Of a stretch of 58,370 nt of DNA, positions 1 through 37,262 are shown piece after piece; the first letter of the stretch is position 1, and every line of letters starts with the position of its first letter. The notes under the pieces are model-generated. The model saw only the letters and a list, made by a program, of their open reading frames with translations. It made no database searches and was not told where the DNA came from. The stretch comes from an uncultured Anaerolineae bacterium (GTDB lineage: Bacteria; Chloroflexota; Anaerolineae; Anaerolineales; Villigracilaceae). The position numbers and the translations under genes were made by a program. Where the stretch lies: positions 1-58,370 of the forward strand of contig CAIVSQ010000588.1 in the NCBI GenBank assembly GCA_903908605.1, given 5' to 3'.

Positions 1-2
1 AT

Positions 3-716
3 GGCCCCAATCAAGTCTCCCTGTATACAAAAAAAGCCTTTGATATTTTATCGAAAATCTGGCTAAAGGTCGGTTGGAACCAAAAATTCGAATATACGTT
101 CTCGTGGTTTGGACGCCCAATCATACAAATCCCAGAAGATATGGTGCGGTTGCAAGAGGTAATCTATCGAATTAAGCCAGATGTGATCCTTGAAACTGGA
201 ATAGCGCATGGCGGTTCAATAATTTTCTCTGCCAGTCTATGTAAAGCAATCGGAAAAGGCCGTGTAATCGGTGTTGATATCAAAATTCACCCAAGCAATC
301 GCGAGGCAATTGAGACCCATGAGTTATTTCCCTTAATTACCCTGATTGAGGGCAGTTCAACCGCCCCAGATACTATTCAAAAGGTTATTGATCTAATCAA
401 ACCAGGCGAAACAGTCCTGGCAATTTTGGATTCCAATCACAGCAAAGCGCATGTTCTGGCTGAACTTGAGGCGTATCATTCTCTAATAACCCCAGGATCG
501 TATATTGTTGCTACAGATGGAGTAATGGAAGATTTACACGACACTCCGCGCGGCAAACCCGAATGGATCTATGATAACCCAAAAGCTGCGGCACTTGAAT
601 TTGCCAGTCGCCACTCCGATTTCATAATTGACCAACCAATTTGGCCATTCAATGAAAGTGATTTAACGGATAATATTACACATTGGCCTGGGGCATGGCT
701 GAAAAAAACGCCATAA
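3..716 (+). CDS. CmcI-like cephalosporin hydroxylase/sugar O-methyltransferase family protein, 5'-partial
   Basis: The frame is open to the left edge, so the start lies outside the window; 237 codons are visible. The motif ETGIAHGGS with GRVIGVDI downstream is the SAM-binding Rossmann core of the CmcI/rhamnosyl O-methyltransferase family, followed by the family-typical IEGSS and VLAILDSNHSKAHVLAEL segments. The preceding residues (SWFGRPIIQIPEDMVRLQEV, about 45 codons in) also fit the family and show that an internal ATG at 141 is not the true start. Members usually methylate sugars or a small-molecule scaffold in glycan and antibiotic clusters and are soluble. Next to a glycosyltransferase array, methylation of a glycan is a reasonable inference, but the substrate cannot be read from sequence. 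Confidence 0.8.
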   Translation, partial: GPNQVSLYTKKAFDILSKIWLKVGWNQKFEYTFSWFGRPIIQIPEDMVRLQEVIYRIKPDVILETGIAHGGSIIFSASLCKAIGKGRVIGVDIKIHPSNREAIETHELFPLITLIEGSSTAPDTIQKVIDLIKPGETVLAILDSNHSKAHVLAELEAYHSLITPGSYIVATDGVMEDLHDTPRGKPEWIYDNPKAAALEFASRHSDFIIDQPIWPFNESDLTDNITHWPGAWLKKTP

Positions 717-847
717 TAAATCTTAAGTTGACTCAGTATTCCATAGCACCAACTTATTGAGAAGATACTAAAAGAGTCCTTATCAAAAATTGCCCACGAC
801 CAGGCCTTAAGAAAATTGTCCGTCGACTGGGTTTCCGAAGCCAGTAA

Positions 848-1105
848 TACGAACACGTACTCGCGGAACTAAAAGCCTATGCCCCTCTGACTTCCACCGG
901 CAGTTATTGCGTTGTATGGGATACCGGCATTGAAGATTTACCCGAGGGCTATGTCACCAACCGCCCGTGGGGGAAAGGCAACAACCCCAAGACGGCTGTC
1001 TTTGAATACCTCAAATCCAACCCCGATTTCGTAATTGATCAGTCCGTTTCTGATAAATTCATGATTACCGCCGCACCGGACGGATTCTTGAAAAGGGTAA
1101 AATAA
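848..1105 (+). pseudogene. Remnant of a second CmcI-like methyltransferase gene
   Basis: An 85-codon frame beginning directly after an in-frame stop at 845 matches the C-terminal third of the upstream gene product. Shared landmarks in the same order are HVLAEL-AY, GSY, EDL, NPK-A, DF-IDQ and a final LK segment. No start codon, ribosome site or SAM-binding half is present, and the stretch from 717 to 847 has stops in this frame. The simplest reading is a tandem duplicate that lost its 5' two thirds. It is intact enough at the protein level to suggest a fairly recent loss. Confidence 0.7.
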
Positions 1106-1134
1106 CCCGCGCTATCTTTATCACGTTTGGTTCT

Positions 1135-1179
1135 AAATTCTGCCCTCCGAGGTTTGATAGGAGGCAGAATTTATTTTTA
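1135..1179 (+). terminator. Rho-independent terminator after the methyltransferase remnant
   Basis: Arms AAATTCTGCCCTCC (1135-1148) and GGAGGCAGAATTT (1160-1172) pair with a single bulged C, with an 11-nt loop, followed by ATTTTTAA. It separates the methyltransferase region from the glycosyltransferase array. Confidence 0.75.
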
Positions 1180-1304
1180 ATCCCTCGCTGCTCTCCTGTC
1201 CCCGGCTCATTCATGGATGTCATCCTTCATGGCGCCTGGTGAAGCAAGGTTTTTTATGCCCGTTTTACGATTCACCTGTAGAGCTTTTGGTATGATTGGT
1301 GCGT

Positions 1305-2888
1305 ATGGACTACCTCAGCCTCTGCCTGATCTGTAAAGACGAAAACGACTACCTGCCCGAATGGTTGGATTACCACATCCTGATGGGGGTCGAGCGTTTT
1401 TATATTTACGATAACGAAAGCCGTGTCAGCCTGCGCACAAGCCTGGGTGATTACATTGAACGCGGTTGGGTGGTTGTGGTCGATATCCCTGGCCGGGATA
1501 TGCAGCTCCAGGCTTATGATCATTGTCTGCAGAACTTTGGCGCTCACACCTTCTGGCTTGGTTTCATCGATACCGATGAATTCCTGGTCCCCAAAACTAC
1601 ACTTGACCTTAAGCTATTGCTCAAGGAATTTGAGGCCTGTGCTGGCCTGGCGGTCAGTGCCTTGTTTTTTGGCTCCAATGGTCACAAGCATCGTCCCGCG
1701 GCTGGGCAGATATCCTCCTACACCCGTCACGCTCACCCCACCTTCATGGAGTTCATTTACGTCAAGAGCATTGTCCAGCCAGCCCTGGTTCTCATGCCCC
1801 ATTCCCCCCATGATTTTATCTATCAGCCGGGCCAGTTCTGTGTCAACGAAAACTTCCTGCGTGTTGATGGGCAACGTTTCCCCAATTCCATTCAAAAAAT
1901 ACAACTCAATCACTACTATTGTCGCTCCGAACAGGAGATCGACCTCAAGCTCAGCCGCGGCAACAGCCAGGATGTGGTTTGGCCGCGCAAGCGTTTTGAC
2001 CTGGTCAACACCCTTGCCACCTATGAAGATCGCTCCATCCTCAACAACCTTGCTACACTGCTCGGCCAGCCAGCCGGGATGGAGATCTGGCGAAGTCGCG
2101 CCTTGCAAATCCCGGCCACATTGATGCCAGAGGCTTTTTCCCAAAACCACATCGCCCGCACCTTCAGGTCTGAACTGCTGCGCATGAATAGCCTCCGTTC
2201 CGAGGTCGAGCTTGCGGTCCAACGCAAGGACCCCGCGCAAGTACAACAGCTTATCGCCAGGCAGTTATCGATTGCCCCCGATTATCTCCTGTTGTATGTT
2301 GATCTTTGCATCTATCTTCTCGCGCTCAATGACTTCCCCGGCGCCTGGCAGGCCATCACATCCGCCTGGAAAATTTCCTCCAGCAGCTATCTTGTCTTAA
2401 GCACCATGACTTTTTTCTTTATCAAGACCGAAAACTTTGAAATGGCCGAGAAAACCTGCCGCCTGTTGCTGGACCTGGCCCCGCATGATATGGTCGCTCT
2501 CGGCATGTTCACCCAGTGCCTCATTGGCCAGGGCCGTTATGAGGACGCCCTGCGGGTGGGTGTACCAGTCGTTGAACTTTCCTCCCAGGTCGGTGAACTT
2601 CCCGACCGGATGGGCGTTTTTCTTGTCAAAAAGATGGCCGATTACCTGCTTCAAAAGCACGATTTTGTCGCCGCAGTGCGTCTTTGGAATGCAGGTGTGC
2701 TTTGCCAGCCTGGTGATGTCAATGTCCTCCTTGAACTCAGTCAGGCCTGCCTGCTCGCCGGTGATCGCCCCGCAGCCCGCCTGGCCCTTGAAAAAGCCGC
2801 TGCTTTAACCCAGGCTGCTGGTCAGACTGCCCTTCGTGAAAAAGTGCTGGCTGCCCTTGCCCAGGTCGATCTCCCCGTTGAGCCCTGA
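1305..2888 (+). CDS. GT92/GT2-like glycosyltransferase with C-terminal TPR domain (array copy 1)
   Basis: A 527-residue protein with no signal peptide or membrane segment, hence probably cytoplasmic. Residues 1-230 form a family 92/Glyco_tranf_2_4-like domain: CKDEND-YLPEWLDYH near the N terminus, the nucleotide-sugar loop FYIYDNES, and the metal-binding DxD at D89-T-D91 inside GFIDTDEF. The conserved tail NHYYCRS-EID-KL-RGN lies near residue 210. From about residue 285 the chain is helical and TPR-like (repeats of the AW-ITSAWKI and LLDLAPHDM type). ATG 1305 is chosen over a TTG nine bases upstream because all five copies start with MDYLSLC. It heads a five-gene run. Donor and acceptor sugars are unknown; the position upstream of flagellin suggests glycosylation of the filament. 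Confidence 0.85.
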   Translation: MDYLSLCLICKDENDYLPEWLDYHILMGVERFYIYDNESRVSLRTSLGDYIERGWVVVVDIPGRDMQLQAYDHCLQNFGAHTFWLGFIDTDEFLVPKTTLDLKLLLKEFEACAGLAVSALFFGSNGHKHRPAAGQISSYTRHAHPTFMEFIYVKSIVQPALVLMPHSPHDFIYQPGQFCVNENFLRVDGQRFPNSIQKIQLNHYYCRSEQEIDLKLSRGNSQDVVWPRKRFDLVNTLATYEDRSILNNLATLLGQPAGMEIWRSRALQIPATLMPEAFSQNHIARTFRSELLRMNSLRSEVELAVQRKDPAQVQQLIARQLSIAPDYLLLYVDLCIYLLALNDFPGAWQAITSAWKISSSSYLVLSTMTFFFIKTENFEMAEKTCRLLLDLAPHDMVALGMFTQCLIGQGRYEDALRVGVPVVELSSQVGELPDRMGVFLVKKMADYLLQKHDFVAAVRLWNAGVLCQPGDVNVLLELSQACLLAGDRPAARLALEKAAALTQAAGQTALREKVLAALAQVDLPVEP

Positions 2889-2911
2889 CCCTTTACCAGG
2901 ACCCCATTATG

Positions 2912-4636
2912 ATGGATTACCTCAGCCTCTGCCTGATCTGCAAAGATGAAAACGACTACCTGCCCGAGTGGTTGGATTATCACATCCTGATGGGTGTCGA
3001 TCGTTTTTATATATACGATAACGAGAGCCGCGTCAGCCTGCGTGAAAGTCTGCGAGACTATATCCAGCGCGGCTGGGTCGTCGTAGTAGATATCCCGGGC
3101 AGCGCCATGCAGCTCTTTGCTTATGACCACTGTCTGCAGACCTTTGGCCATCTCACCTTTTGGTTGGGCTTTATCGATACAGATGAGTTCCTGGTCCCTC
3201 ATACTACGCTCGACCTTAAAGAGTTTCTTCGTGAGTACGAGCCTTATGCTGGTCTGGCGGTCAGTTCGCTCTTCTTCGGGTCCAACGGCCACAAATTGCG
3301 CCCTACCATTGGCCAGCTGGCAGCTTACACCACCCGTCCGCATGCCACATTTAGGGAAAATGAGCTGGTCAAAAGCATCGTTCAGCCTTCACGCGTCCTC
3401 ATGCCCAATTCGCCGCATGATGTCCTTTATCGCGAAGATGCCTGGGGCGTAAACGAAACAGGTTTTCGGGTCGATTACCAGCGTTTCCCCAACCATACTG
3501 AAAAGATCCAGGTTAATCATTATTACTGTCGCTCCGAAAAAGAGATCGACCAGAAGCTGAAACGAGGTAACAGCGGTGCCGTCACCTGGCCGCGCAGGCT
3601 CTTTGAGGCGGTCAACCGCCTCTCCACCGATCTCGATGAAAGCGTGCTGGTAAATCTTGAAACCCTCTTCCAGCGTGCGGACCAACCGGTCACCTTGCAA
3701 ACCCTGCTCCCTGCCATGGCCGCCCTGGCTGGCACCCGCCTGGCAACGCCACCTGCCCCCGAAATGCTTCACCCCCTGCCGGCCACCAGCTTCCGGCCAG
3801 CTTTCTCCGAAATTGAGCTTCTCAAGGCCCAGACCCGCGCCGCCATGGATCGCCACGATATCAACGAAGCTCAGCGCCTGGTGCTGCAATTGTTGCAGCG
3901 TTGCCCGCAAAACATCAACCTCTATGACGTCCTTGCCACAATAAAAATTAACCTTGGTGATGCCCCCGCCGCCTGGCAGCTTCTTACCCAGGCCTGGCAG
4001 CTATCGCCTGGCAACAATTACATTGTGCTTTTGGCCATGGCCCATTATTTTCTTCGTATCGCCAACTACCCCATGGTCGAGAATACCTGCCACCTTGTTC
4101 TTGCCCTCGCTCCGCACGATATGAACGCTCTTGGCCTGCTTGCCTGGTCGCTTCTCGAACAGGGTCGTCCAGCCGAGGCCCTCAGCATCGGTGTGCCTCT
4201 GGTTGAACTTTGCGCCCAGCTTGGTGAGCTGCCCGAACGGGTTGGCCTTGGAATTGTAAAAAAACTGGCCGATTACCTGCGTGATCAAAAAGACTATACC
4301 GCTTCCATCCATCTCTGGCAGCTGGCCGAAAAATGCCAGCCCACAGAACTGGCCGTGCTGATCGAACTTGTCCAGGTCCAGCTGCTCCAGGGTGACCAGG
4401 CCGCTGCGCGCCAGGTTCTCCAGCGTGCCGCAGCCCTCGCCCCCGGGCACCCGCTCATCCTCGATCTGCAGCAGCAGGCATCGTCCCGAATCATCAACGG
4501 GGCATCGTCCCGAATCATCAACGGGGCATCGTCCCGAATCACTAACGGGGCATCGTCCCGAATCACTAACGGGGCATCGTCTCGAATCAGTAACGTGTCG
4601 TCGTCGAATGTGCCACCCTCCAAAAGGAAGCGCTGA
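2912..4636 (+). CDS. GT92/GT2-like glycosyltransferase with TPR domain (array copy 2), repeat-extended C terminus
   Basis: 574 residues, the longest of the five copies. The N-terminal catalytic domain again has CKDEND-YLPEW, FYIYDNES and GFIDTDEF, and TPR-like helices run from about residue 285 to 520. The start codon is doubled (ATGATGGAT); ATG 2912 matches the other copies. The extra length comes from a C-terminal tail coded by a 24-bp tandem repeat, giving about five tandem ASSRI(I/T)NG octapeptides, followed by a basic end (PPSKRKR). It lies 23 nt after copy 1 and 6 nt before copy 3, so co-translation is likely. The tail is polar and probably disordered; its role is unknown. Confidence 0.85.
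   Translation: MDYLSLCLICKDENDYLPEWLDYHILMGVDRFYIYDNESRVSLRESLRDYIQRGWVVVVDIPGSAMQLFAYDHCLQTFGHLTFWLGFIDTDEFLVPHTTLDLKEFLREYEPYAGLAVSSLFFGSNGHKLRPTIGQLAAYTTRPHATFRENELVKSIVQPSRVLMPNSPHDVLYREDAWGVNETGFRVDYQRFPNHTEKIQVNHYYCRSEKEIDQKLKRGNSGAVTWPRRLFEAVNRLSTDLDESVLVNLETLFQRADQPVTLQTLLPAMAALAGTRLATPPAPEMLHPLPATSFRPAFSEIELLKAQTRAAMDRHDINEAQRLVLQLLQRCPQNINLYDVLATIKINLGDAPAAWQLLTQAWQLSPGNNYIVLLAMAHYFLRIANYPMVENTCHLVLALAPHDMNALGLLAWSLLEQGRPAEALSIGVPLVELCAQLGELPERVGLGIVKKLADYLRDQKDYTASIHLWQLAEKCQPTELAVLIELVQVQLLQGDQAAARQVLQRAAALAPGHPLILDLQQQASSRIINGASSRIINGASSRITNGASSRITNGASSRISNVSSSNVPPSKRKR
4478..4597 (+). repeat. In-frame 24-bp minisatellite, five units
   Basis: Five head-to-tail 24-nt units (4478-4501, 4502-4525, 4526-4549, 4550-4573, 4574-4597) begin GCATCGTCCCGAATC. 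Units 1 and 2 look identical, 3 and 4 identical to each other and differing from 1 and 2 by two bases, and unit 5 is more divergent. Because 24 is a multiple of three, gain or loss of units changes the length of the tail of array copy 2 without shifting the frame. Confidence 0.9.
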
Positions 4637-4642
4637 TTTCGC

Positions 4643-6244
4643 ATGGATTACCTCAGTCTCTGCCTGATCTGCAAGGATGAAAACGACTACCTGCCCGAAT
4701 GGTTGGATTATCACATTCTCATGGGTGTCGATCGTTTTTATATTTACGATAACGAAAGCCGTGTCAGCCTGCGCACAAGTCTCAGTGATTACATCGAACG
4801 CGGCTGGGTGGTCGTGGTCGATATCCCCGGCAAGGCCATGCAGCTTTACGCCTACGATCACTGCCTGCAAATCTTCGGCGCTCAAACTTTCTGGCTCGGT
4901 TTTATCGATACGGATGAATTCCTGGTTCCCAAAACCGCGCCCGGTTTGAAGGAATTGCTCAAGGATTATGAGCAGTACGCCGGCCTGGCTGTCAGCTCGT
5001 TATTCTTTGGCTCCAACGGTCATCAATCCCGCCCCCTTGCTGGTCAGGTCGCATCCTACACCACCCGCAGCCATGACACCTTCAAGGAAAATGAGCTGCT
5101 CAAAAGCATTGTTCAACCTGCTTATACTGTCATGCCCAATTCTCCCCACGATTTTATCTTTGTGGAAAATGCATGGTGCGTAAATGAACGCTTCGACCGG
5201 GTCGACGGCCAGCGTTACCCCAATCACGTCCAGAAGATACAGCTTAACCACTATTACAGTCGTTCAAACCAGGAAATCGACCAAAAACTGCGCCGCGGCA
5301 ACAGTGGCGATATCGCCTGGGCCCGCCGGCGCTTCGAGGTGGTCAATGCCGTCTCCACCGTCGAGGATCAGGCCATCCTGCGCCTATTTACCGCCAATCC
5401 CGGGTCTTCTGTGCCCGACCCCATTACTAATCTACCCGCCCACATGGCTCAGCTTACTCGCCATCACTGCGTTGACCCGCTTGATATCCCATACCCATCC
5501 GTTGCCGTTGAGTTTCGCTCCACCTTCTCGCAAATTGACCAAATCAAAAGCCAGATGCGAGCAGCTCAAGATCGCCACGACCTGGCTGAATTCCGCCGTC
5601 TACTCCTGCTCCGCATCCAGGCTGCTCCCAACTACCTGGTCCTCTATGTTACGCTTTCCAATCTTTGTATTGAGCTTGATGATCCCCAGGCGGCCTGGCA
5701 GTCTCTTGGTGAAGCCTGGCGTCGTTCTCCCAATAATTACGTTATCCTGGTCGGCATGGCCTTTTATTTCTTAAAAACCGACAATTTCCCGCTGGCCGAA
5801 AATACCAGTCGCCTGCTGCTGGGAATTGCCCCGCATGATGCGACTGCCCTGGCCTACCTCACCTGTTCCTTCCTCGGTTTGGGACGTTACGATGAAGCCA
5901 TTGCCCTGGGGGTTCCGCTGCTGGAATTGGATTGGCAGTTCAATGAACTACCGGATGGCATGGGTCTCTTCCTCGCCCGGCAGTTGGCCGCCTGCCTGCA
6001 GCAAAATCATGATTACATCGGGGCCGCGCGTTTGTTGGAACAGGCTCTCATCCTTCAATCTGGCGATCTTAATCTCTTGATTGCCCTTGCCAATGTTCTT
6101 CACCTTGCCGGTGATGAGAAAAACGCCCGCCGCCGTTTGCTGGAAGCCCGCGCGCTTGAGCCTGGCAACCAGCTCGTTACCAACCTGCTCAAACAGCTTG
6201 GCCCATCCACATCAACGCCTCGCGCTCAAAAAGAGCGCCGTTAA
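4643..6244 (+). CDS. GT92/GT2-like glycosyltransferase with TPR domain (array copy 3)
   Basis: 533 residues, same architecture: CKDEND-YLPEW at 10-20, FYIYDNES at about 33-40, GFIDTDEF with DxD, then NHYYSRSNQEID-KL-RGN, then a TPR-like C-terminal half (AWQSLGEAWRRSPNNYV, LLGIAPHDA). ATG 4643 follows the stop of copy 2 by six bases; no strong ribosome site is visible, which points to translational coupling. The catalytic half is very close to copies 1 and 2, even at the DNA level over the first hundred codons, while the linker and TPR half differ. Function as for the other copies: transfer of a sugar to an unknown acceptor. Confidence 0.85.
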   Translation: MDYLSLCLICKDENDYLPEWLDYHILMGVDRFYIYDNESRVSLRTSLSDYIERGWVVVVDIPGKAMQLYAYDHCLQIFGAQTFWLGFIDTDEFLVPKTAPGLKELLKDYEQYAGLAVSSLFFGSNGHQSRPLAGQVASYTTRSHDTFKENELLKSIVQPAYTVMPNSPHDFIFVENAWCVNERFDRVDGQRYPNHVQKIQLNHYYSRSNQEIDQKLRRGNSGDIAWARRRFEVVNAVSTVEDQAILRLFTANPGSSVPDPITNLPAHMAQLTRHHCVDPLDIPYPSVAVEFRSTFSQIDQIKSQMRAAQDRHDLAEFRRLLLLRIQAAPNYLVLYVTLSNLCIELDDPQAAWQSLGEAWRRSPNNYVILVGMAFYFLKTDNFPLAENTSRLLLGIAPHDATALAYLTCSFLGLGRYDEAIALGVPLLELDWQFNELPDGMGLFLARQLAACLQQNHDYIGAARLLEQALILQSGDLNLLIALANVLHLAGDEKNARRRLLEARALEPGNQLVTNLLKQLGPSTSTPRAQKERR

Positions 6245-6249
6245 CCCCC

Positions 6250-7857
6250 ATGGATTACCTCAGCCTCTGCCTGGTCTGTAAAGATGAGAACCACTACCTG
6301 CCCGAGTGGTTGGATTATCACATCCTGCTCGGTGTGGACCGTTTTTACATTTACGATAACGAGAGTCATGTCAGCCTGCGCACCAGTCTGGCGGCCTATA
6401 TCCAGCGCGGTTGGGTGGTGGTCATCGATGCACCTGGTCAGGCCATCCAGCTCAATGCATATGATCACTGCCTGCGCACCTTTGGCGCTCATACGTTCTG
6501 GCTGGGCTTCATCGATACAGATGAATTCCTGCTTCCAAAAACGAACTCCAATCTAAAAGACCTGCTCAAAGAATTTGAACCTTATGCCGGCCTTGCCGTC
6601 AGCTCCCTCTTTTTCGGATCCAACGGCCACCTCGTTCGCCCGCTGCAAGGGCAGTTAGCCGCCTACACCACCCGTGTCGATGCCGCGATCCATGAATATC
6701 AATTGGTCAAGAGCATTGTTCAACCGCGTTGGGTCATCATGCCCAATTCTCCGCATGACTTTATTTACCAGGAAAATCAATCCTGTGTTAACGAAGTCTT
6801 TCTGCCGGTGGAATACCAACGCTTTCCCACTCATACTGAAAAAATCCAGCTTAATCATTACTACTGTCGCTCCGCCCACGAGATCAAGCAAAAACTGCAA
6901 CGTGGCAATGCCCAGTCGGTCGCCTGGCAGCGCGATCGGTTCGATACGCTCAATCACTTGGCCACCACCCCCGATGACTCTGCTCCTCAGTTGCTGGCGC
7001 GCCTGCTGGATGAACCTGGCCAAAACTCCGCCGCACAGGTCACGGCGCTGTTCGAAAAAATGGCTCGCGCAGCTCACCAGCTCTCACCAAACCAGCCACC
7101 GTCGCAATCTTCGGCCCGCATGTCCGCTATTCGTCCAGAACTTGCTCTCTGGTTGCAGAAAAAAGCGGCCTGGGAAGCTGCCAAAGCCGGTAACGACCTG
7201 GCCAATGTTCTTCGCCTTGGGCAGGAAATGCTCCAGCTGCACCCGCACTACATTCACTTACTGGTGGTCATGGCCGTTGATTGCCTGGCGGTCAATGATC
7301 CTGCTTCGGCCTGGCAGTATTTATCCCACGCCTGGCAGCTTTCACCCAATAAAAACTACAATGTCTTAAGTGGCATGGTCTTCTTTTTCCTCTGGACAGA
7401 TAATTTCACCATGGCCGAAAAAACCAGCCGCCTCATCCTTGATTTCGCCCCCACGGATGTGCAAGTTACAGGCCTGCTTGTCAGCAGCCTGATCGGTCTC
7501 GGCCGTCGCGCGGATGCCCTCCAGGTTGGTTTGCCCTTGTTGGCGCTGGCCGGTTCGCCAGGCTGGCAGCTCTCTGACCGGTTGGCAATCAGCCTGTTTA
7601 ACTCCCTTGCCGGTTATTTGCTTGAAGATCATAATTATCTGCTTGCCCAACGTCTTTGGGAGCAGGCGGTCAGTTGGCGGCCCAACGACCCTGGCCTGCA
7701 GTTGCAGCTGGCTCAAACTTGTCTGCTAGCCGGTGACCCTCAGTCCGCCCGCCGTTGGCTCGCCAGCGTACTTGCGCTTGCCCCGCAAAACGAACAGGCG
7801 CTCCAACTTCTCAGGCAGGTTGAAAACCCTGCCTCTCCCTCCACACGTGCAGCCTGA
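6250..7857 (+). CDS. GT92/GT2-like glycosyltransferase with TPR domain (array copy 4)
   Basis: 535 residues with the array architecture. The N terminus reads MDYLSLCLVCKDEN and keeps EWLDYH, FYIYDNES and GFIDTDEF; residues 280-535 are TPR-like (AWQYLSHAWQLSPNKNY, RLILDFAPTDV). ATG 6250 lies 5 nt after the stop of copy 3, and copy 5 starts 4 nt after its stop, so copies 2 to 5 are packed as one transcriptional unit. The region between the two domains is proline- and serine-rich (around residues 280-295), probably a flexible linker. Acceptor unknown. Confidence 0.85.
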   Translation: MDYLSLCLVCKDENHYLPEWLDYHILLGVDRFYIYDNESHVSLRTSLAAYIQRGWVVVIDAPGQAIQLNAYDHCLRTFGAHTFWLGFIDTDEFLLPKTNSNLKDLLKEFEPYAGLAVSSLFFGSNGHLVRPLQGQLAAYTTRVDAAIHEYQLVKSIVQPRWVIMPNSPHDFIYQENQSCVNEVFLPVEYQRFPTHTEKIQLNHYYCRSAHEIKQKLQRGNAQSVAWQRDRFDTLNHLATTPDDSAPQLLARLLDEPGQNSAAQVTALFEKMARAAHQLSPNQPPSQSSARMSAIRPELALWLQKKAAWEAAKAGNDLANVLRLGQEMLQLHPHYIHLLVVMAVDCLAVNDPASAWQYLSHAWQLSPNKNYNVLSGMVFFFLWTDNFTMAEKTSRLILDFAPTDVQVTGLLVSSLIGLGRRADALQVGLPLLALAGSPGWQLSDRLAISLFNSLAGYLLEDHNYLLAQRLWEQAVSWRPNDPGLQLQLAQTCLLAGDPQSARRWLASVLALAPQNEQALQLLRQVENPASPSTRAA

Positions 7858-7861
7858 AAAT

Positions 7862-9460
7862 ATGGATTACCTCAGCCTCTGCCTCATCTGCAAGGACGAA
7901 AACGATTATTTGCCCGAATGGTTGGATTACCACATCGCCATGGGGGTCGATCGATTTTATATCTATGATAACGACAGCCGTCTTAGCTTGCGAAAAACGC
8001 TCAAGACCTATGTTCAAGCAGGCTGGGTATTGGTGATCGATGCCCCCGGTGCCAACCAGCAGTTGGCTGCCTATGACCACTGCCTGCAAATCTTTGGTCC
8101 TCACACCCGCTGGCTTGGTTTTATCGATACCGATGAATTCCTGCTACCCAAAACCACGCCAAACCTCCCGACCCTCCTGCAGGAATACGAGCCCTATGCT
8201 GGCCTGGCTGTCAGCTCGCTTTTTTTTGGTTCAGGCCCCCACAAAACGCGCCCCGTATCCGGCCAGTTGGCAGCGTACTGCCTGCGGACTCCAGAGGAAT
8301 TTAAAGAAAACGAGTTGGTGAAAAGCATTGTCCAGCCTGCCAACGTCCTTTTCCCCAATTCCCCTCACGATTTTCTCTACCGCGAGAATGCCTGGTGTGT
8401 CAACGAAAATTTTGAGCGTGTCGATGGCCAGCGTTTTCCCAATCGTATCGCCAAAATTCAGCTTAATCATTACTACTGTCGTTCCAGCCAGGAGATCGAT
8501 GCCAAGCTGCGTCGTGGCAATGCCCAGTCGGTCGCCCTTGCTCGCCAGCGTTTTGATGCCATTAACGCTCGTTCCACCGTGCCAGATTCCTCCATCCTGG
8601 AGAGCCTGGCTACCCTTTGCCATACGGCCGCTCTCGAACCGGCCAACCCCGGCGCTCATTCTCGTGATTTGTTAAATAAAATCGCAACCCTTGCCCGCTT
8701 GCGTACCCCCTTGCCCACTCATCTTCCACCCGCGCCGCTCGGCCTGAGCAGCCGGGCTGCCTTTTCTGCCGAGCAGCAGCTCAAGAGCCAGGTTCGCCAG
8801 GCCATTCAGCGGGATGACCTGCCTGAGGTCCAGCGACTAAAACTGCTTCGCCTGCAAATGGCGCCAGGTAACATCCTGCTCTTGCTTGAGCTGGCTTCCA
8901 CCACCCTCGACCTGGGAGATTTCTCCACCACCTGGCAAATCCTCAGCCAGGCCTGGCAGTCTTCCCCCAATAATTACCTGGTTTTACATGGCATGCTGAT
9001 ATATTTCCTGCGGATCGAAAATTTCCCCATGGCCGAAAACACCAGCCGCCTCTTGCTGCAGATCGCTCCCCACGATCTCACCACCCAGGCGATGCTGACT
9101 CACAGCCTTATTGCTCAGCAGCGCTGGGCTGAAGCCCTCCAGATTGGCCTGCCAGTTCTCGAACTTGCTGCCGACCAAAATAACTTTCCTGAAGGCATGG
9201 CGGAATTCCTGCTTGGCCGGCTCTCTGCCTATCTGACTGAAACACATGATTACCCCGCGCTTGTGCGCCTTTGGCGGGCCGGTTGCGCGTCCCAGCCGGG
9301 TGATCTTCATCCCCAGGTGCAACTTGCCCGTGCCCTGCTGCTGGCTGGGCTACTGGACGAAGCTCGCCAGCTCCTCATCCGCTTACCCCGTCAACCACAG
9401 GTTTTGGATTTGCTGGACCAGCTCGATGCCACCCTGGCTTCAACCGGTGATATTTCTTGA
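7862..9460 (+). CDS. GT92/GT2-like glycosyltransferase with TPR domain (array copy 5)
   Basis: 532 residues when started at ATG 7862, which restores the MDYLSLC start shared by all copies; an in-frame upstream start at 7733 would lie deep inside copy 4. It keeps YDND in place of YDNE and the DxD of GFIDTDEF. It is the most divergent catalytic domain (an extra GSGPHKTRP where the others have GSNGH). TPR-like helices fill residues 300-525. It is the last gene before flagellin, with 267 nt between them that hold a sigma-28-type promoter. Confidence 0.85.
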   Translation: MDYLSLCLICKDENDYLPEWLDYHIAMGVDRFYIYDNDSRLSLRKTLKTYVQAGWVLVIDAPGANQQLAAYDHCLQIFGPHTRWLGFIDTDEFLLPKTTPNLPTLLQEYEPYAGLAVSSLFFGSGPHKTRPVSGQLAAYCLRTPEEFKENELVKSIVQPANVLFPNSPHDFLYRENAWCVNENFERVDGQRFPNRIAKIQLNHYYCRSSQEIDAKLRRGNAQSVALARQRFDAINARSTVPDSSILESLATLCHTAALEPANPGAHSRDLLNKIATLARLRTPLPTHLPPAPLGLSSRAAFSAEQQLKSQVRQAIQRDDLPEVQRLKLLRLQMAPGNILLLLELASTTLDLGDFSTTWQILSQAWQSSPNNYLVLHGMLIYFLRIENFPMAENTSRLLLQIAPHDLTTQAMLTHSLIAQQRWAEALQIGLPVLELAADQNNFPEGMAEFLLGRLSAYLTETHDYPALVRLWRAGCASQPGDLHPQVQLARALLLAGLLDEARQLLIRLPRQPQVLDLLDQLDATLASTGDIS

Positions 9461-9533
9461 GGAATACTTGCCTCACCTTTCAAAACGGTAAGCCATTTTA
9501 TGTCTATTTTACGCAGAATCCACCATTAAACCC

Positions 9534-9560
9534 TCAAGTAACCACCATCCCTGCCGAAAC
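9534..9560 (+). promoter_or_regulatory. Candidate sigma-28 (FliA) promoter for flagellin
   Basis: TCAAGTAA (9534-9541), 11-nt spacer, GCCGAAAC (9553-9560). The E. coli sigma-28 consensus is TAAAGTTT-N11-GCCGATAA, so spacing is exact and 11 of 16 positions match. Transcription from here would give a flagellin leader of about 160 nt. Confidence 0.65.
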
Positions 9561-9682
9561 TATATGTGTAAGATAAAAAAAGGTATCACGGAGGCCTCAG
9601 GCTCACAAACACCATCTGATCCACCACCGGCAGTACCAGTCCAGATTTTTTTCGTAAGACAAGGTTTCACATCTTATTCAAA

Positions 9683-9721
9683 AGGGGAAGGATCCCCTGA
9701 ACGTACATTCAAACATGGAGG
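9683..9721 (+). promoter_or_regulatory. Candidate CsrA-binding leader of flagellin mRNA
   Basis: A 5-bp stem AGGGG/CCCCT (9683-9687 with 9694-9698) presents a hexaloop AAGGAT, matching the core CsrA consensus ARGGAU. A second ANGGA (ATGGA, 9715-9719) overlaps the Shine-Dalgarno sequence ATGGAGG, seven bases before the flagellin ATG. A hairpin-loop site plus a site on the ribosome-binding site is the layout known for CsrA control of flagellin (hag) in Bacillus. No csrA or fliW gene is in the window. Confidence 0.45.
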
Positions 9722-9727
9722 TTTGAA

Positions 9728-11323
9728 ATGGCTAGTGTAGATGTAACAAGAATTGCAAGCAATATCCAGGCTCTCAATGCCCTCAACTCCCTCACCAGCA
9801 TCAATGCCAAGCTGGCGACCCACCAGCAGCGCCTTTCCACTGGCAAGCGCATCAACAGCGCCGCCGATGACCCCGCTGGTCTGACCATCGCTACCAAAAT
9901 GTTGGCCCGCTCTGAAGGTCTGAAAGCCAGCATCGATAACATCAGTGATGCCAAGAACATGCTCTCCGTCGCCGAAGGCGGCCTGAGCACCATGACCGAC
10001 ATCTTGATCGCCATGCGCACCCAGGCTGAGAAGGCCGCTTCTGACACCCTCGGCACCGCTGAACGCGCTACCATCCAGACCCAGCTCTCGTCCTATTCCC
10101 AGCAGATTCAGGAACTGGTTGACCAGACCAAGTGGAACGGTGTCAAGCTGCTCGATAACAGCACCGGCGCCAAGGTCTTCCAAACTGGTGTTGACGAAGG
10201 CGAAACCACTACCTGGAGCGTTCCCCAGGCCCTCACCCCCGGCGCCACTGGCCTGAACCTGTCCAAGCGTGTTGCTTCCGCCACCGCCACCACTTCCGGC
10301 ACCGCTGGTTCATTTGTCACCACCGGTACCGCAGTGATTGAGGCTGTTTCCACCGCCAGCAACCTGTCCGAACTCAGCACCGGCGACTGGAGCCTGAATG
10401 TGACCGACAAGGCAGTCAGCACTACCCAGGGCAAGGCTAACCTGGACATGTCCAGCACTTTGATCGGTGGTATGGCTTCGCTGACCACCACCAATGCCGC
10501 TGCTTCCACCGCTGCCACCATGACTTCTGGTCGCTACGAGCTCAAAATCATCTCCACCACCTCGGATGCCACCAACACCACCGTCAACTACGAACTCAAG
10601 AACCTGACCGACGCCACCTGGAATTCCACTGGCAAGCTCTCCAGTAACACCTTTGTTGTCTTGGCCGCCACAACGTTCGATATCAAAGATAACTCAGCAG
10701 CCACGCTCGGTGTCACCCTCAACCTGGGTGGTTCCGGTGCAGCCGGCCTGACCACCGGTCAGACCATGACCTTCGAGTACATCCGCGCCAACGACGTCAA
10801 GGTTGAGCTCAAGGATAGCCTTGGCAGCAACCAGGCCATGTCCCAGTACAAGTTCACCGCTGGTACCACTTCCGGTACAGGCACAGTCAGCTATGGCCAG
10901 GCCGACGCCATCTTCAACACCGGTCGCGGTATCCAGACCAAATTCGATGTTTTCGCCGATGTTGTTGCAGATGCAGCCAGTGGTATTCAGAACTTCACTT
11001 ACGAACGCATGAACAACTACTCGGTGAACGTCTCCAATTCCAACAAGGGCGGCTCCTACCTGACCACCGTCAACACCGCTCTCGACCGGGTCACCAGCGT
11101 CGTCTCCGACTTGGGCGCGTTGATCTCCCGCCTGTCTTACAAAGAAGTTCAGAGTGCGACTGCCCAGGCAGCAGTTGAAGGCGCTTACAGCCGCATCATG
11201 AACGCCAACATGGCTGAAGAACAGGTCAATGCCAGCAAGTACACCATCTTGCAGCAGACCGCCACCGCCATGTTAGCCCAGGCCAATGCGGCTCCGCAGA
11301 ACCTTCTGACACTCTTCCGCTAA
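9728..11323 (+). CDS. fliC: Flagellin
   Basis: 531 residues, the filament subunit exported by the flagellar type III system. The N-terminal D0/D1 region has the flagellin signature IQALNALNSL, LSTGKRINSAADDPAG and LTIATKM. The C-terminal D0 ends in ILQQTATAMLAQANAAPQNLL with the terminal Arg typical of the family. The central part (about residues 165-410) is unusually rich in Thr, Ser, Ala and Gly, which is both the surface-exposed region and a plausible O-glycosylation target. A good ribosome site (GGAGG) precedes ATG 9728. The gene is preceded by a sigma-28-type promoter and followed by a GC hairpin, then fliD, two flaG and fliS. Confidence 0.96.
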   Translation: MASVDVTRIASNIQALNALNSLTSINAKLATHQQRLSTGKRINSAADDPAGLTIATKMLARSEGLKASIDNISDAKNMLSVAEGGLSTMTDILIAMRTQAEKAASDTLGTAERATIQTQLSSYSQQIQELVDQTKWNGVKLLDNSTGAKVFQTGVDEGETTTWSVPQALTPGATGLNLSKRVASATATTSGTAGSFVTTGTAVIEAVSTASNLSELSTGDWSLNVTDKAVSTTQGKANLDMSSTLIGGMASLTTTNAAASTAATMTSGRYELKIISTTSDATNTTVNYELKNLTDATWNSTGKLSSNTFVVLAATTFDIKDNSAATLGVTLNLGGSGAAGLTTGQTMTFEYIRANDVKVELKDSLGSNQAMSQYKFTAGTTSGTGTVSYGQADAIFNTGRGIQTKFDVFADVVADAASGIQNFTYERMNNYSVNVSNSNKGGSYLTTVNTALDRVTSVVSDLGALISRLSYKEVQSATAQAAVEGAYSRIMNANMAEEQVNASKYTILQQTATAMLAQANAAPQNLLTLFR

Positions 11324-11348
11324 ACCTGATCCAGTAGGATGACCTAAA

Positions 11349-11372
11349 GGGGGGGGCGCTTGCGCCTCCCCC
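11349..11372 (+). terminator. GC hairpin downstream of flagellin
   Basis: A ten-base-pair stem, GGGGGGGGCG with CGCCTCCCCC (one G-U pair), closed by a CTTG tetraloop. There is no T-run behind it, so it may act as a 3' stabiliser of the flagellin mRNA or as a partial terminator that lowers expression of fliD. Confidence 0.5.
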
Positions 11373-11452
11373 ATACTGCATCTTAAAGCGTATAATGAAA
11401 ATATAGCTTCTATTTAGGAATTGACGAACATTTGCAGGGAAGAAGGTAAATC

Positions 11453-13132
11453 ATGGCTAGCACCATTACACCCATCGATACCCAGATCGCCGGATTGGCG
11501 CAAACGTTTCAAACCGCCATCAAGGCCACTCTCAAGGTTGAAAGCGATCCACTTAATAAGACCCAGGCACTCAAGGACACAGTCGATGTCCGCCGCAGTG
11601 TCTATACGGATATTAAGACCAATTTCACCAACCTGCAAAACGCCCTCCAGGCGCTTATCAGCTCCCAGGCAACCTATGGTTTAAATCAGACCAGCGCTGT
11701 TACCGTCACCCCCAGCACCGGCACCGTTCTTACCGCCAACGTTGCCAGTGATGCCGCTGTGGGTGAGTACGATGTCGTTGTTTCCCAGCTTGCCAAAGCT
11801 CAATCCAAATCCACCAGCTTGTCTGTCTCGGGTATTGATATTGCCCTGGGCAAGAGCGGTACCTTTTGGATGGGGGGCTCAGGTACTGCCGCTTATACCT
11901 TGGGCGCCAGCACCACCGTCACGGCCGGGTCCACCTCCACAGTTTATTCTGGTCAACGTGAATTGGGCACCGGCAATTACACCCTCGAAGCCCGTGATTA
12001 CGGTGGCTCCCGCCAGTTCCGCCTGGTGGATGCCGATGGCACGGCCGTTTCCATTCGCAACATGATCGATGGCACCTCCTACACCAGCGATTGGCAGACC
12101 ATGAATTCCGGTAGCTTCGATACCGGCCGTGGTATGACGCTCACCATGAGCACCGCCGGTACCACCACCTCCACATCACTGGCGTACACCGCTGCCGGCA
12201 CCTCCATTTCTATCAACTCAACCGACACCTTGCGTACCATCACCGCCGCCATTAACGGCGCCAGCCAGCCTGAAGGCCGCGATTTCAAGGCCTCCATCGT
12301 CGCCAACCAGCTCGTTCTCACCGGCGCGCGTACTGGCGAAAACCACGGCATGCTTTTCACCGATGGTGCCAGTCTCGGTTTTGGCGCCGATTTGCAGGCC
12401 GCTCAAAATGCCAAGTTTACAGTCAATGGCATGCCGGTTTCCCGCGCGGTCAATTCCAAGCTGACCGACGTTGTCAGCGGTCTTACCCTCAACCTTGCAT
12501 CTGATGCCGAAGGCAAATCTGCCCACCTGAGTATTGCCGCTTCCTCAGATAAAGCCGCCGCCTTGATGACGACACTGGTCAATAGTTTCAACACCGCCAT
12601 GTCACACCTCAAGGATAAATTGGCCTCCACCCCCAGTACCGTCAATGGCAAAACCACCTATACCCGTGGGCCGGTCAGTGGCGAGGCCACCCTGCGCAGC
12701 TTGCGCCAGGATATGCTCGGTCGCATGACCAACAACTTTACCAATAGCGGCAGTTACACCAACCTCTCTCAAATTGGTCTGAGCTTCGATAAAGATATGA
12801 AGTTATCGTTCAATGCCACCACTTTCTCTTCTGCCATGCAAAGCAGTCGCAGTTCCGTTACCTCCCTGCTGGATGCCGGCCTGGGTTCCATCAACACTGT
12901 GGTTTCCAATTACGTCGGTTCAAGTGGCTCTCTCTCTCTCTCTCTCAGCTCTCTTGATGATCAGAGCAAGAATTATGATGCTCGTATTCTCAAGTACAAC
13001 GAAACGCTTGAAAAGCGCAAAGAAACCTTATTCAATAAATACATGGGTTACCAGAACCAGCTGGTCGAATATGGTTACACTGCCCAGTGGTTGGGTATCA
13101 TGACCGGTACCAACACCAATACGTCGGCCTGA
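11453..13132 (+). CDS. fliD: Flagellar filament cap protein FliD (HAP2)
   Basis: 559 residues. The N-terminal region fits FliD_N (DTQIAGLAQTFQTAIKATL, DVRRSVYTDIKTNFTNLQNAL), with the AAVGEYDVVVSQLAKAQS stretch characteristic of the family. The C-terminal FliD_C helices include NTVVSNYVGSSGSL, a DQSKNYDARI coiled segment and YMGYQNQL. The middle is Ser/Thr/Gly-rich, like the flagellin core. FliD is exported and caps the growing filament, ordering flagellin assembly. An AGGGAAGAAGG ribosome site lies upstream of ATG 11453. A TATAAT at 11391 has no matching -35, so transcription from the flagellin promoter is also possible. Confidence 0.94.
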   Translation: MASTITPIDTQIAGLAQTFQTAIKATLKVESDPLNKTQALKDTVDVRRSVYTDIKTNFTNLQNALQALISSQATYGLNQTSAVTVTPSTGTVLTANVASDAAVGEYDVVVSQLAKAQSKSTSLSVSGIDIALGKSGTFWMGGSGTAAYTLGASTTVTAGSTSTVYSGQRELGTGNYTLEARDYGGSRQFRLVDADGTAVSIRNMIDGTSYTSDWQTMNSGSFDTGRGMTLTMSTAGTTTSTSLAYTAAGTSISINSTDTLRTITAAINGASQPEGRDFKASIVANQLVLTGARTGENHGMLFTDGASLGFGADLQAAQNAKFTVNGMPVSRAVNSKLTDVVSGLTLNLASDAEGKSAHLSIAASSDKAAALMTTLVNSFNTAMSHLKDKLASTPSTVNGKTTYTRGPVSGEATLRSLRQDMLGRMTNNFTNSGSYTNLSQIGLSFDKDMKLSFNATTFSSAMQSSRSSVTSLLDAGLGSINTVVSNYVGSSGSLSLSLSSLDDQSKNYDARILKYNETLEKRKETLFNKYMGYQNQLVEYGYTAQWLGIMTGTNTNTSA

Positions 13133-13146
13133 ACTGCAAGGGCCGT

Positions 13147-13232
13147 AGGATGAAATCGAATGGCATGGAGCGGGCAGGATGCTTGTCTCTTTATTTGTAC
13201 AGGATGCCAGTCCATTGCAAGGATGCAAGGAG
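13147..13232 (+). promoter_or_regulatory. GGA-rich leader before flaG (candidate CsrA target)
   Basis: The 108-nt gap between fliD and flaG holds six GGA triplets. Four are in AGGATG copies (13147, 13176, 13201, 13220), one in ATGGA (13165) and one in CAAGGAG (13226-13232), which is the ribosome site of flaG. CAAGGATG at 13218 matches the CsrA core consensus CARGGAUG. Clustered GGA motifs with one on the ribosome site are typical of CsrA-repressed leaders. Confidence 0.4.
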
Positions 13233-13240
13233 TGTGAACC

Positions 13241-13633
13241 ATGAGTGATACAGGATTAAACTCAATCAGTAGTGTCAGGCCGGTTGATCCTGGGCTTACC
13301 CCCCGCCAGCCCGCCCCTGTTCAGCCTGATGCAGCTAGTTCTGCGGCTGCAAGGGTCAATGTAGCTGCCCAGGAAAAGGTTGCCGCGCAGGAAAAAGTGG
13401 CCTCCCAAGAAAAAACGCAAGCCCAGGGGAAACCCCAGGCGCCGGCGAAGCCTGCCGAGTCAGCCCTGATGACCGATAACTCCAATATTTCGCTTAAGTT
13501 TCGAGTGGACGAAGAAACCAGGGACGTCACCATCTTTGTCGTTGACCGCAGCTCCAAGAAGGTCTTGCGTTCGATTCCACCTGGTGAATTGGCCAAAATG
13601 CAGGCCGGCGATTTACTCAAACTGACCGCCTGA
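13241..13633 (+). CDS. flaG: FlaG family flagellar protein (copy 1)
   Basis: 130 residues. The C-terminal 50 residues carry the FlaG pattern LKFRVDEETRDVTIFVVDRSSKKVLRSIPP followed by GDLLKLTA. The N-terminal 75 residues are low-complexity, with AQEKVAAQEKVASQEK repeats, probably disordered or coiled. FlaG proteins affect filament length in several bacteria and sit beside fliD and fliS, as here. The ribosome site CAAGGAG lies eight bases before ATG 13241. Confidence 0.85.
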   Translation: MSDTGLNSISSVRPVDPGLTPRQPAPVQPDAASSAAARVNVAAQEKVAAQEKVASQEKTQAQGKPQAPAKPAESALMTDNSNISLKFRVDEETRDVTIFVVDRSSKKVLRSIPPGELAKMQAGDLLKLTA

Positions 13634-13700
13634 TATTTTCGCTTTCTTTGACGGAACAATCCCTGGAGGTTGATTTTAATTTGCCAGGTTCTGGGGTGTT

Positions 13701-13726
13701 ACCCGGTTGCCCGGGTTATTTTGTTT
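13701..13726 (+). terminator. Terminator after flaG copy 1
   Basis: ACCCGG (13701-13706), loop TTGC, CCGGGT (13711-13716), then TATTTTGTTT. It is short but followed by a T-rich tract, and it separates the first flaG from the sigma-28-type promoter of the second. Confidence 0.6.
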
Positions 13727-13823
13727 AAAGCCGCGTGATTTATCCCACCCGGCCGGCCTGGTCCAGTTGGGTGGTACTATCGGGGGAAATCCAGTTTTTT
13801 ACATAAAATTAACAACTTGCCAC

Positions 13824-13850
13824 TCAAGTTTCCAAATGCACTGCCGATGA
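13824..13850 (+). promoter_or_regulatory. Candidate sigma-28 (FliA) promoter for second flaG
   Basis: TCAAGTTT (13824-13831), 11-nt spacer, GCCGATGA (13843-13850). This matches 14 of 16 positions of TAAAGTTT-N11-GCCGATAA, the best overall match of the three seen. The rest of the 301-nt gap (13634-13934) holds only the terminator and no gene that I can support. Confidence 0.75.
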
Positions 13851-13934
13851 TATTCATAGTTGTAAAATCTCTATTTGATCTTCGGTTATGGCTGTGAGCA
13901 ACTCAGGCATGGACGCCTGGGTTGAGGCAAAAGG

Positions 13935-14291
13935 ATGGAACCTATGGGAGAAAATGTCATTCAAGCTGTTGGACAAAAGGATGGGGATGCCTCACGGGCA
14001 GCCGTGATGTACCAGATGTACCAGAACCAGCTTTACCGGTCATCCTCTGAGACGGCGCCTGTACCTGCGCCGGAAAAAAATGAAAAACCGGCCAAGGCAG
14101 AAGAAAAGCCTTCTCAAAACTTCCTGCCTGTCACCTCGCCCGAAACATTCCTGCGTTTCGTGGTGGATGAAAAAAGCAATGACATCACCGTCTACGTCGT
14201 TGACCGCGCTTCCCGCCGTGTCATGCGCAGTATTCCGCCCAACGAGGTCAATAACCTCAAGGCCGGCGACCTGCTCAAGCTGGTTGTCTAA
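13935..14291 (+). CDS. flaG: FlaG family flagellar protein (copy 2)
   Basis: 118 residues. The C-terminal half (LRFVVDEKSNDITVYVVDR, RVMRSIPPNEVN, GDLLKLVV) is the FlaG domain, clearly paralogous to the gene at 13241. The N-terminal half has a lysine/proline/glutamate-rich linker (about residues 40-65). ATG 13935 is 7 nt after a GAGG; an ATG nine bases downstream (13944) also has an AAAGGA at a good distance, so the start is uncertain by three codons. It has its own sigma-28-type promoter, so the two FlaG copies may be expressed at different times. Confidence 0.83.
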   Translation: MEPMGENVIQAVGQKDGDASRAAVMYQMYQNQLYRSSSETAPVPAPEKNEKPAKAEEKPSQNFLPVTSPETFLRFVVDEKSNDITVYVVDRASRRVMRSIPPNEVNNLKAGDLLKLVV

Positions 14292-14356
14292 AATAGCGCC
14301 CGGCATTGCCGCGCCCTAATCACCAAATTATTTATGCGGAATTAATGCCAGATTGC

Positions 14357-14383
14357 TAAAGTTTTTCTCAAGTCAACCGAAAC
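14357..14383 (+). promoter_or_regulatory. Candidate sigma-28 (FliA) promoter for fliS
   Basis: TAAAGTTT (14357-14364), identical to the consensus -35, then an 11-nt spacer and ACCGAAAC (14376-14383), 5 of 8 against GCCGATAA. It lies 45 nt upstream of the fliS start. Confidence 0.65.
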
Positions 14384-14428
14384 TGATATAGAACACAGAA
14401 AACTAGAACTTACCCAGGAGTAGCCACT

Positions 14429-14803
14429 ATGTATCAAACAGCATATCACAGTCAGTATCGTCAGCAAGATGTTATGGGCGCTAGCCCGCTTCGCCTGGTG
14501 ATCATGACCTATGATTTGGCAATTCGCTCCTGTGAACAAAAGGAGTTCGAGAAGTCCATCAAGACCATCTCTGCTCTTCGTGATGCCCTCGACCTCAATT
14601 ATCCAGAGGTTTCGGTGGGCCTTTTCCGCCTTTACCAGTGGTGCATGGATTGCATTCGCAATGGCGATTATGAATCCGCCATTCACACCCTCACCGAACT
14701 GCGCGAAGCCTGGAAATTGACCGAGCAGACCATCACCGCCCGTCAGGCCGCTGCCGCCATCCCGCCCGCCTATTCCACCCGCCTGGGTCGCATCTCCGCC
14801 TGA
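14429..14803 (+). CDS. fliS: Flagellin export chaperone FliS
   Basis: 124 residues. It begins with the family pattern YQTAYHSQYRQQDVMGASPLRLVIMTYD, including the conserved aromatic residues near the N terminus and the P-x-x-L-V-M-x-Y/L-Y-D core. The remainder is a four-helix bundle with RDALDLNYPEVSVGLFRLYQW. FliS binds the C terminus of flagellin in the cytoplasm, keeps it unfolded and delivers it to the export gate. A CAGGAG ribosome site precedes ATG 14429. It ends the late-gene block, with a terminator behind it. Confidence 0.93.
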   Translation: MYQTAYHSQYRQQDVMGASPLRLVIMTYDLAIRSCEQKEFEKSIKTISALRDALDLNYPEVSVGLFRLYQWCMDCIRNGDYESAIHTLTELREAWKLTEQTITARQAAAAIPPAYSTRLGRISA

Positions 14804-14894
14804 TTTTTACTCTTCGTTCCAAAGCCAGTTGTAGTGGGGAATTCAATCAATAAGGGCCGGGGTTGCCGTGCCCACATTGGAAAAAGATAGGTCG

Positions 14895-14935
14895 AAGCGC
14901 CTTTCCTTAGGGAATAGGGCGCTTTGGCGTTTTTC
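14895..14935 (+). terminator. Rho-independent terminator after fliS
   Basis: AAGCGCC (14895-14901) pairs with GGCGCTT (14918-14924), extended by an inner TTCC/GGAA, followed by TGGCGTTTTTC and further T-rich sequence. It divides the late genes from the basal-body operon. Confidence 0.75.
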
Positions 14936-15022
14936 TTCACACGTTTTTTATTTTAACTTCACACTGCTTTTACAGCGTATATGCTCTTGTTTTGATATCA
15001 TCATCGTGTCAAGGAGCATATT

Positions 15023-37014: not shown

Positions 37015-37199
37015 CCGCTCCGTCTGTTTACTCGTCCTCCACAAGTTATCCCCAACCGGCCCACCTTCACAGGCGCCGGTTTTTTTATCCCTGCCTTCCT
37101 GTGCCTTCGCCAGCTTGTGCTCTTTGGTATTTTGTGACCGCGGCAATCTCTTGTCTTGCTGAAATAATCCATATTCGTACTCTTCTAAGGGAACACGGA

Positions 37200-37228
37200 T
37201 TGACAAATAAACGTCATTCATACATACT
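37200..37228 (+). promoter_or_regulatory. Sigma-70-type promoter of the alpha-2-macroglobulin gene
   Basis: TTGACA (37200-37205), 17-nt spacer, CATACT (37223-37228). The start codon lies 34 nt downstream, with ACGAGG as the ribosome site. Confidence 0.6.
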
Positions 37229-37262
37229 AAAGTTGTGCTTTTTTTCTCAAACGAGGTCATCG

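Follow-up and report, generated by a model that had tools for sequence, protein, structure and literature searches.

The 58,370-nucleotide (nt) contig CAIVSQ010000588.1 of an uncultured Anaerolineae bacterium, hereafter the window, carries near its start an array of five consecutive genes whose products all join an N-terminal glycosyltransferase (GT) domain to C-terminal tetratricopeptide repeats (TPRs). The array ends 267 nt before the start of the flagellin gene fliC, and the gaps between its members are, in order, 23, 6, 5 and 4 nt. The genes concerned are:

1305-2888, + strand: GT92-TPR copy 1, 527 residues.
2912-4636, + strand: GT92-TPR copy 2, 574 residues; an additional ATG lies at 2909.
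4643-6244, + strand: GT92-TPR copy 3, 533 residues; the copy taken for structure modelling.
6250-7857, + strand: GT92-TPR copy 4, 535 residues.
7862-9460, + strand: GT92-TPR copy 5, 532 residues counted from the conserved MDYLSLCL start; a long open reading frame (ORF) from 7733 overlaps copy 4.
9728-11323, + strand: flagellin gene fliC, 531 residues (PF00669, E = 4e-30; PF00700, E = 5e-16); the proposed acceptor.

All five proteins pass the curated Pfam cut-off for GT92 (PF01697, 57.3-68.7 bits against 23) and for the GT2 group family PF13704 (47.0-55.6 bits against 27.5), and each has a TPR_19 match above cut-off in its C-terminal half. An earlier note on this DNA had described five consecutive genes of the same GT-TPR architecture, 527-574 residues long, upstream of flagellin; the ORFs, Pfam matches and gaps bear this out, and a five-gene array of GT92/GT2-like GT-A domains fused to TPRs is confirmed. 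The predicted fold of the catalytic half is a GT-A fold with a DxD motif and a metal-binding histidine, as in GT92, and its nearest solved structure is that of GalS1, a plant GT92 galactan synthase (8d3t). In the model of copy 3 the protein ends with the TPR superhelix, and the other four, which are of similar length, align to the copy 3 end. GT and TPRs lie within one protein, soluble as judged from hydropathy only. Copy 1 shares 52-55% identity with copies 2-5, a divergence that marks the array as old paralogs and not as an assembly stutter. When the entire assembly (5.77 Mb, 91.5% complete, 6.4% contaminated) was searched at the protein level with copy 3, exactly these five came back and nothing else, all eight candidates having been scored.

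The fusion keeps close company with flagellin. Within the family it was found in 6 of 152 genomes, all of them among the 17 with a flagellin-domain match, and all 19 fusion gene matches sit in arrays that end at fliC. In a sample of 400 genomes of the order, ten carry the fusion and all ten lie among the 55 with a flagellin match (53 above the Pfam cut-off); by match coordinates a listed copy is less than 1 kb from the flagellin match in nine of the ten, the tenth being the window's own genome, whose adjacent copy 5 fell outside the three scored and was seen in the whole-assembly search. The probability of such co-occurrence by chance is 8e-7 for the family and 1e-9 for the order, values to be read with care as the genomes are related. 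At the thresholds used, the fusion was not found in any genome lacking a flagellin-domain match in either the family set or the order sample. Matches were few in the samples of the class (2/396 genomes) and of the phylum (5/400), the latter comprising two full-length matches, both from this family, and three over the GT half only. Up to nine candidates per genome were scored in the family and up to three in the order, class and phylum samples, and further copies could thus be missed. A search of genome contigs with two peptide patterns, which under-samples remote relatives, gave 30 loci, and all 11 from Chloroflexota (L006-L016) adjoin fliC. Some genomes are common to several searches; counting each once leaves 13 distinct fusion-carrying genomes, and in 13 of 13 one copy lies 114-412 nt from fliC, divergently from it in three Leptolinea. 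Genetic linkage to flagellin, a trait of TPR-guided flagellin glycosyltransferases, is therefore present throughout. The earlier note had drawn the flagellin link from position; it now has comparative support, the fusion occurring only with a flagellin match and with a copy beside fliC, and the survey which that note had proposed located the array neither far from flagellar genes nor in flagellin-less genomes. The three Leptolinea loci (L012, L013, L014) hold both the fusion and a flagellar cluster. The isolate L. tardivitalis YMTK-2 has the two-copy version; its genome encodes flagella, although the species was originally described as nonmotile (PMC4653795).

We read the array as the putative transferase core of a flagellin glycosylation island, whose five proteins would glycosylate flagellin, with a probability of roughly 0.77. 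Its support comes from the make-up of the domains, their conserved catalytic residues and the predicted fold, and from a fusion that co-occurs with flagellin, adjoins fliC and varies in copy number. Each protein would act in the cytoplasm as a metal-dependent GT-A enzyme, transferring a sugar from its nucleotide-activated form to flagellin Ser/Thr ahead of export, with the C-terminal TPR superhelix docking the flagellin monomer and each copy reaching its own site or sites. We infer both flagellin as the substrate and the O-linked bond; that all copies use one donor sugar and differ in target site are the weakest steps, to which we give slightly less than an even chance. A different acceptor, some other surface polymer or protein, with adjacency to fliC due to shared regulation or chance, is very improbable. 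It would sit well with a polysaccharide synthase, GalS1, as the nearest solved enzyme, and with the other 19 loci of the contig search (18 records named for other phyla and one named as a bacterium), which match mainly over the GT half and within which none of the window's flagellar proteins has a match; it is countered by the fliC adjacency in every fusion genome, by the failure to find the fusion in flagellin-less genomes, and by an array without the fliC promoter motif, which leaves shared regulation not evident.

The number of copies differs widely between lineages: seven in L006/G512, five in the window, two in L007, L008, L010 and the Leptolinea genomes, and one in L009, L015, L016 and G753, with L011 holding one and a cut-off copy across fliC. 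In a tree that left out the partial L011_2, eight of 25 inner branches are firm. Two lines run through the three Leptolinea genomes (supports 99/96 and 93/75, one firm), L010 has its own pair (100/99) and window copies 2-5 fall together (90/95); the L098 copies, window copy 1 and L009 have no resolved placement. These groupings make separate expansion clear in Leptolinea and in L010, and probable in the window.

Divergence among the copies is uneven along the protein. Window copies are 72.5% identical over the GT half, where the catalytic residues are invariant, 27% over the linker and 42% over the TPR half, and those of the closest relative (L098, the seven-copy array) 81%, 44% and 64%. Groove-facing TPR positions, which we take to be 2, 5, 9, 12 and 13, are the least conserved class (0.26, with other non-core positions at about 0.45; uncorrected p = 0.03; for L098 the difference has p = 0.10). 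Run on four sets of rows, the test gave uncorrected p values of 0.034, 0.10, 0.042 and 0.040. L098_2, which holds an N, and L007_2, whose frame is broken at the start, were left out of data set A2. A conserved GT half with a diverged TPR half favours one shared donor with different docking over different donors, and weakly suggests one shared sugar on different sites rather than one sugar per copy; the preference is weak because it is common for TPRs to diverge further than GT cores do. The earlier note had suggested that each copy might add one sugar or linkage, which the 72.5% and 42% identities of the two halves and the invariant catalytic residues disfavour. Sequential assembly of one flagellin oligosaccharide, with successive copies adding successive sugars, is accordingly unlikely: an operon-like array of several transferases beside methyltransferases would suit it, as would a copy number that varies as glycan length might, but the halves that set donor and linkage are the part most alike, and every copy retains a TPR half that later sugar additions should not require. 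Slightly less likely again is amplification of same-specificity copies for throughput or by drift. While lineage-specific expansions, the similar copies of L098 and the tight spacing, with Shine-Dalgarno sites inside the preceding gene in L098, speak for it, the window copies have kept their catalytic residues at 52-55% identity, their groove positions are the class least conserved, and Leptolinea retains its two distinct lines, one firmly supported, over three genomes. We tentatively prefer, at somewhat under even odds, a site-addressing set in which donor and chemistry are shared and diverged TPR grooves would direct the paralogs to different Thr/Ser of one flagellin. If so, amplification from one to seven copies would write the number and pattern of filament glycosites in each lineage.

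Several observations count against flagellin glycosylation by the array, or dilute the case for it. The fusion is absent from most flagellated relatives (11/17 in the family, 45/55 in the order sample), so that flagella in this group can do without it. GalS1, the nearest solved enzyme, is one that we take to be membrane-bound, to lack TPRs and to build polysaccharide in plants, and the acceptor of the GT half therefore need not be a protein. Divergence of the TPR half is also expected from weak constraint. The Ser/Thr-rich flagellin centre to which the earlier note had pointed is indeed there (28% Ser+Thr in the window) but is not distinctive, with means of 26.6% (n = 6) in family flagellins with an array and 25.0% (n = 8) in those without (p = 0.16), and we rejected Ser+Thr richness as support for glycosylation. 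Thr alone is enriched (16.5%, n = 6, against 13.4%, n = 8; p = 0.012), a post hoc and phylogenetically confounded comparison that left out L015, whose flagellin is cut by the contig end, and the fragment G481. Flagellins of at least 400 residues occur in 9/9 array genomes with a complete frame and in 13/39 without an array (p = 3e-4), which is again post hoc and confounded by kinship; this count left out G710 (cut by the contig end), the fragments G481 and G746, and G502, G703, G532 and G747 (no match better than 1e-20).

The surroundings of the array and of fliC contain these further features:

1-716, + strand: CmcI / rhamnosyl O-methyltransferase-like gene (PF04989, E = 3e-62), running off the contig start; ORF from the first ATG, 141-716.
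1250-1296, + strand: conserved 47-nt block, candidate array promoter, containing the extended -10-like TGGTATGAT; 83% conserved in L098 by blastn across 47 nt, E = 4e-9.
9534-9560, + strand: sigma-28-like fliC promoter candidate TCAAGTAA-N11-GCCGAAAC, between array and fliC; sole exact match in the window.
11453-14803, + strand: fliD, flaG, a flaG-like gene and fliS.

A counterpart of the CmcI-like gene, with 69.8% identity, precedes the seven-copy array of L006/L098, and the similarity extends back to base 3. A remnant of a second CmcI-like gene lies at 851-1105, between CmcI and the array. Around the L098 array are CmcI, an epimerase, a dTDP-4-dehydrorhamnose 3,5-epimerase and C-methyltransferases; elsewhere the array neighbours include GT4-type genes (L094-L096 and L012) and FkbM methyltransferases (L094 and L011). 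CmcI here, together with the dTDP-sugar epimerase and C-methyltransferase genes of the closest relative, would suggest an O-methylated deoxysugar as the modifying sugar.

Nine family relatives have fliC without the fusion; eight of their contigs reach several kb upstream, where the best match to any window copy has E > 0.05. Of the 17 family genomes with a flagellin-domain match, G475 and G502, each with a single FlgL-like match (E about 1e-17), were set aside; the contig of G506 ends 331 nt upstream of fliC. Pfam naming was partial, covering 20 chosen upstream ORFs from L085, L091, L116, L118-L120 and L122-L124 and leaving out L121, L086, L087, L089, L090, L092 and L093. In fusion-less relatives it placed CheX next to fliC (L091) and a family-21/GT2-type gene about 2 kb upstream (L085). 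Elsewhere in the order, the slot before fliC holds a GT2, epimerases and UDP-galactopyranose mutase in L122, TPR proteins and an epimerase in L124, and in L123 a second GT2 beside a protein (L123:9200-11542, -) in which MptE/Maf-like and GT2 domains are joined to a TPR match. In L116 a single-copy fusion adjoins fliC, and two genes before it lies the gene (3628-6870) for a 1080-residue protein that combines three GT2 stretches with TPRs. The small number of ORFs tested in L118, L119 and L120 gave no sugar genes. The array may therefore be viewed, on gene content, as an optional insert in a glycosylation slot whose neighbourhood resembles a flagellin glycosylation island.

The motif between array and fliC, TCAAGT-N13-GCCGAAA, resembles the sigma-28 consensus. 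The window has three matches at up to three mismatches against 0.39 expected. Before fliC, the exact motif recurs in 5 of 20 other genomes examined and the core form TYAAG-N14-GCCGAA in 11 of 20 (4/11 with the array, 7/9 without). Scored by consensus, the window does not differ significantly from shuffled upstream regions (p = 0.28), and it is conservation that carries the argument. Sigma-28 control of the array was rejected, the motif not being found before copy 1, and shared control of array and fliC is therefore unsupported. With a conserved block before copy 1 and a separate motif before fliC, each may have its own promoter. No other relative examined has TGGTATGAT close before its first copy, although the L008 GT4 gene has one at -105. 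A generic promoter and terminator scan did not outperform shuffles and left the block at 1250-1296 unlisted. No Rfam match was found in window positions 1-15000.

At the array junctions of L098 and L008, the closing codons of one copy contain the Shine-Dalgarno of the copy that follows (AAAAAGGAGACATTAG, translated as KRRH-stop in L008), which suggests translational coupling between copies in these two arrays. A basic C-terminal tail, with at least three K/R/H among the last eight residues, is found in 16 of 29 proteins. We rejected it as a conserved feature, since the codons of the tail serve in L098 and L008 as the Shine-Dalgarno of the following gene, which makes the tail a probable by-product in internal copies; the last copies of L098, L007, L008 and L010 are also basic-tailed, which a by-product of the Shine-Dalgarno does not explain.

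Near its 3' end (4477-4595) copy 2 carries a 24-bp unit five times over, encoding NGASSRI-like repeats after the last TPR. Phase variation was considered and rejected, this sole tandem repeat listed in the array being frame-preserving; two short homopolymers (A7 at 4258, T8 at 8220) keep slippage possible. Over codons 1-25 (1305-1379, 2912-2986, 4643-4717, 6250-6324 and 7862-7936) the five copies have a fourfold-site likeness of 0.91, from 46 pair-sites at few positions, against 0.40-0.51 elsewhere, possibly through local gene conversion or translation-start constraint. The L098 copies are unlike the window in this respect, at only 0.53, in a synonymous-site count that left out L098_2. Recent acquisition was rejected on base composition, the array (55.0% G+C) not being distinct from the region after fliC (53.7%). 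Further downstream lie an FlgB/C-like rod gene, fliE, fliF, fliG, fliI, fliK and flgE. At 37101-45789 a 2042-residue bacterial alpha-2-macroglobulin (A2M)-like gene faces a penicillin-binding protein (PBP) with a sub-threshold BiPBP_C match, which we take to be the common A2M/PBP1C pair, and GH31 and GH15-like glycosidase genes (54649-58304) occupy the contig end.

Among known systems, GmaR of Listeria is encoded by a single gene, and its GT domain (22ao) is the second PDB match of the copy 3 GT half, at an insignificant E = 0.05. GmaR is described in PMC9638930 as GT, TPR, linker and antirepressor, acting both as flagellin N-acetylglucosamine (GlcNAc) transferase and as MogR antirepressor. 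Like the array proteins it places an N-terminal GT before TPR helices, and its authors propose that the TPRs dock the flagellin that it modifies (PMC9638930); unlike it, they lack the extra linker and any C-terminal antirepressor after the TPRs. Its double role would lend some appeal to the copies as regulators of how flagellin is expressed or folded, any glycosylation being secondary. We judge this very improbable, since the complete proteins (452-574 residues against 637) leave no space for an antirepressor, the modelled copy ends with TPRs, and five to seven regulators for one gene would be odd. In Caulobacter FlmG, as reported in PMC7591256, a TPR half binds flagellin by two-hybrid and a GT-B half modifies it. 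FlmG shares with the array the modular TPR plus GT make-up of a flagellin glycosyltransferase; it differs in pseudaminic acid, in one enzyme serving six flagellins, and in having its TPRs N-terminal and its GT-B C-terminal, the reverse of the N-terminal GT-A and C-terminal TPRs found here. The idea of the earlier note that the TPR half chooses the acceptor fits FlmG (PMC7591256). In Clostridium, GT2 proteins with TPRs in flagellar islands are, similarly, predicted flagellin transferases; there are two in a C. sporogenes strain, and the available text of PMC13317340 describes neither a GT92-like enzyme nor an amplified array. The literature searched yielded no description of a flagellin-modifying family of GT92-like enzymes with a TPR superhelix and no report of flagellin glycosylation in Chloroflexota.

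The arrangement itself has precedent. Campylobacter jejuni has seven paralogous maf genes, of which maf2-5 form a four-gene operon downstream of flaAB (PMC13130089), resembling the array as tandem paralogous flagellin glycosyltransferases of variable copy number near flagellin genes. The earlier note, to whose author the five-member array was not a familiar arrangement, thus put its case too strongly. In Maf-1 a C-terminal TPR sets site choice (Unay 2024, cited in PMC13317340); the Maf enzymes are nevertheless an unrelated transferase family with nonulosonic acid donors, and none of the five copies matches PF01973 (Maf) at E up to 0.01. What is new is the GT92-type enzyme family, not commonly tied to flagellin glycosylation, the lineage in which it occurs, and a single fused architecture amplified up to seven-fold. 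The array points to a flagellin-modifying transferase family in Chloroflexota that would combine GT92-like catalysis with a TPR superhelix, and natural versions with one, two, five and seven copies make the question of site versus sugar testable in vitro. If the copies differ by site and not by sugar, they would provide a natural matched enzyme set for how a TPR groove picks one hydroxyl, a choice that, to our knowledge, other TPR-guided glycosyltransferases leave open.

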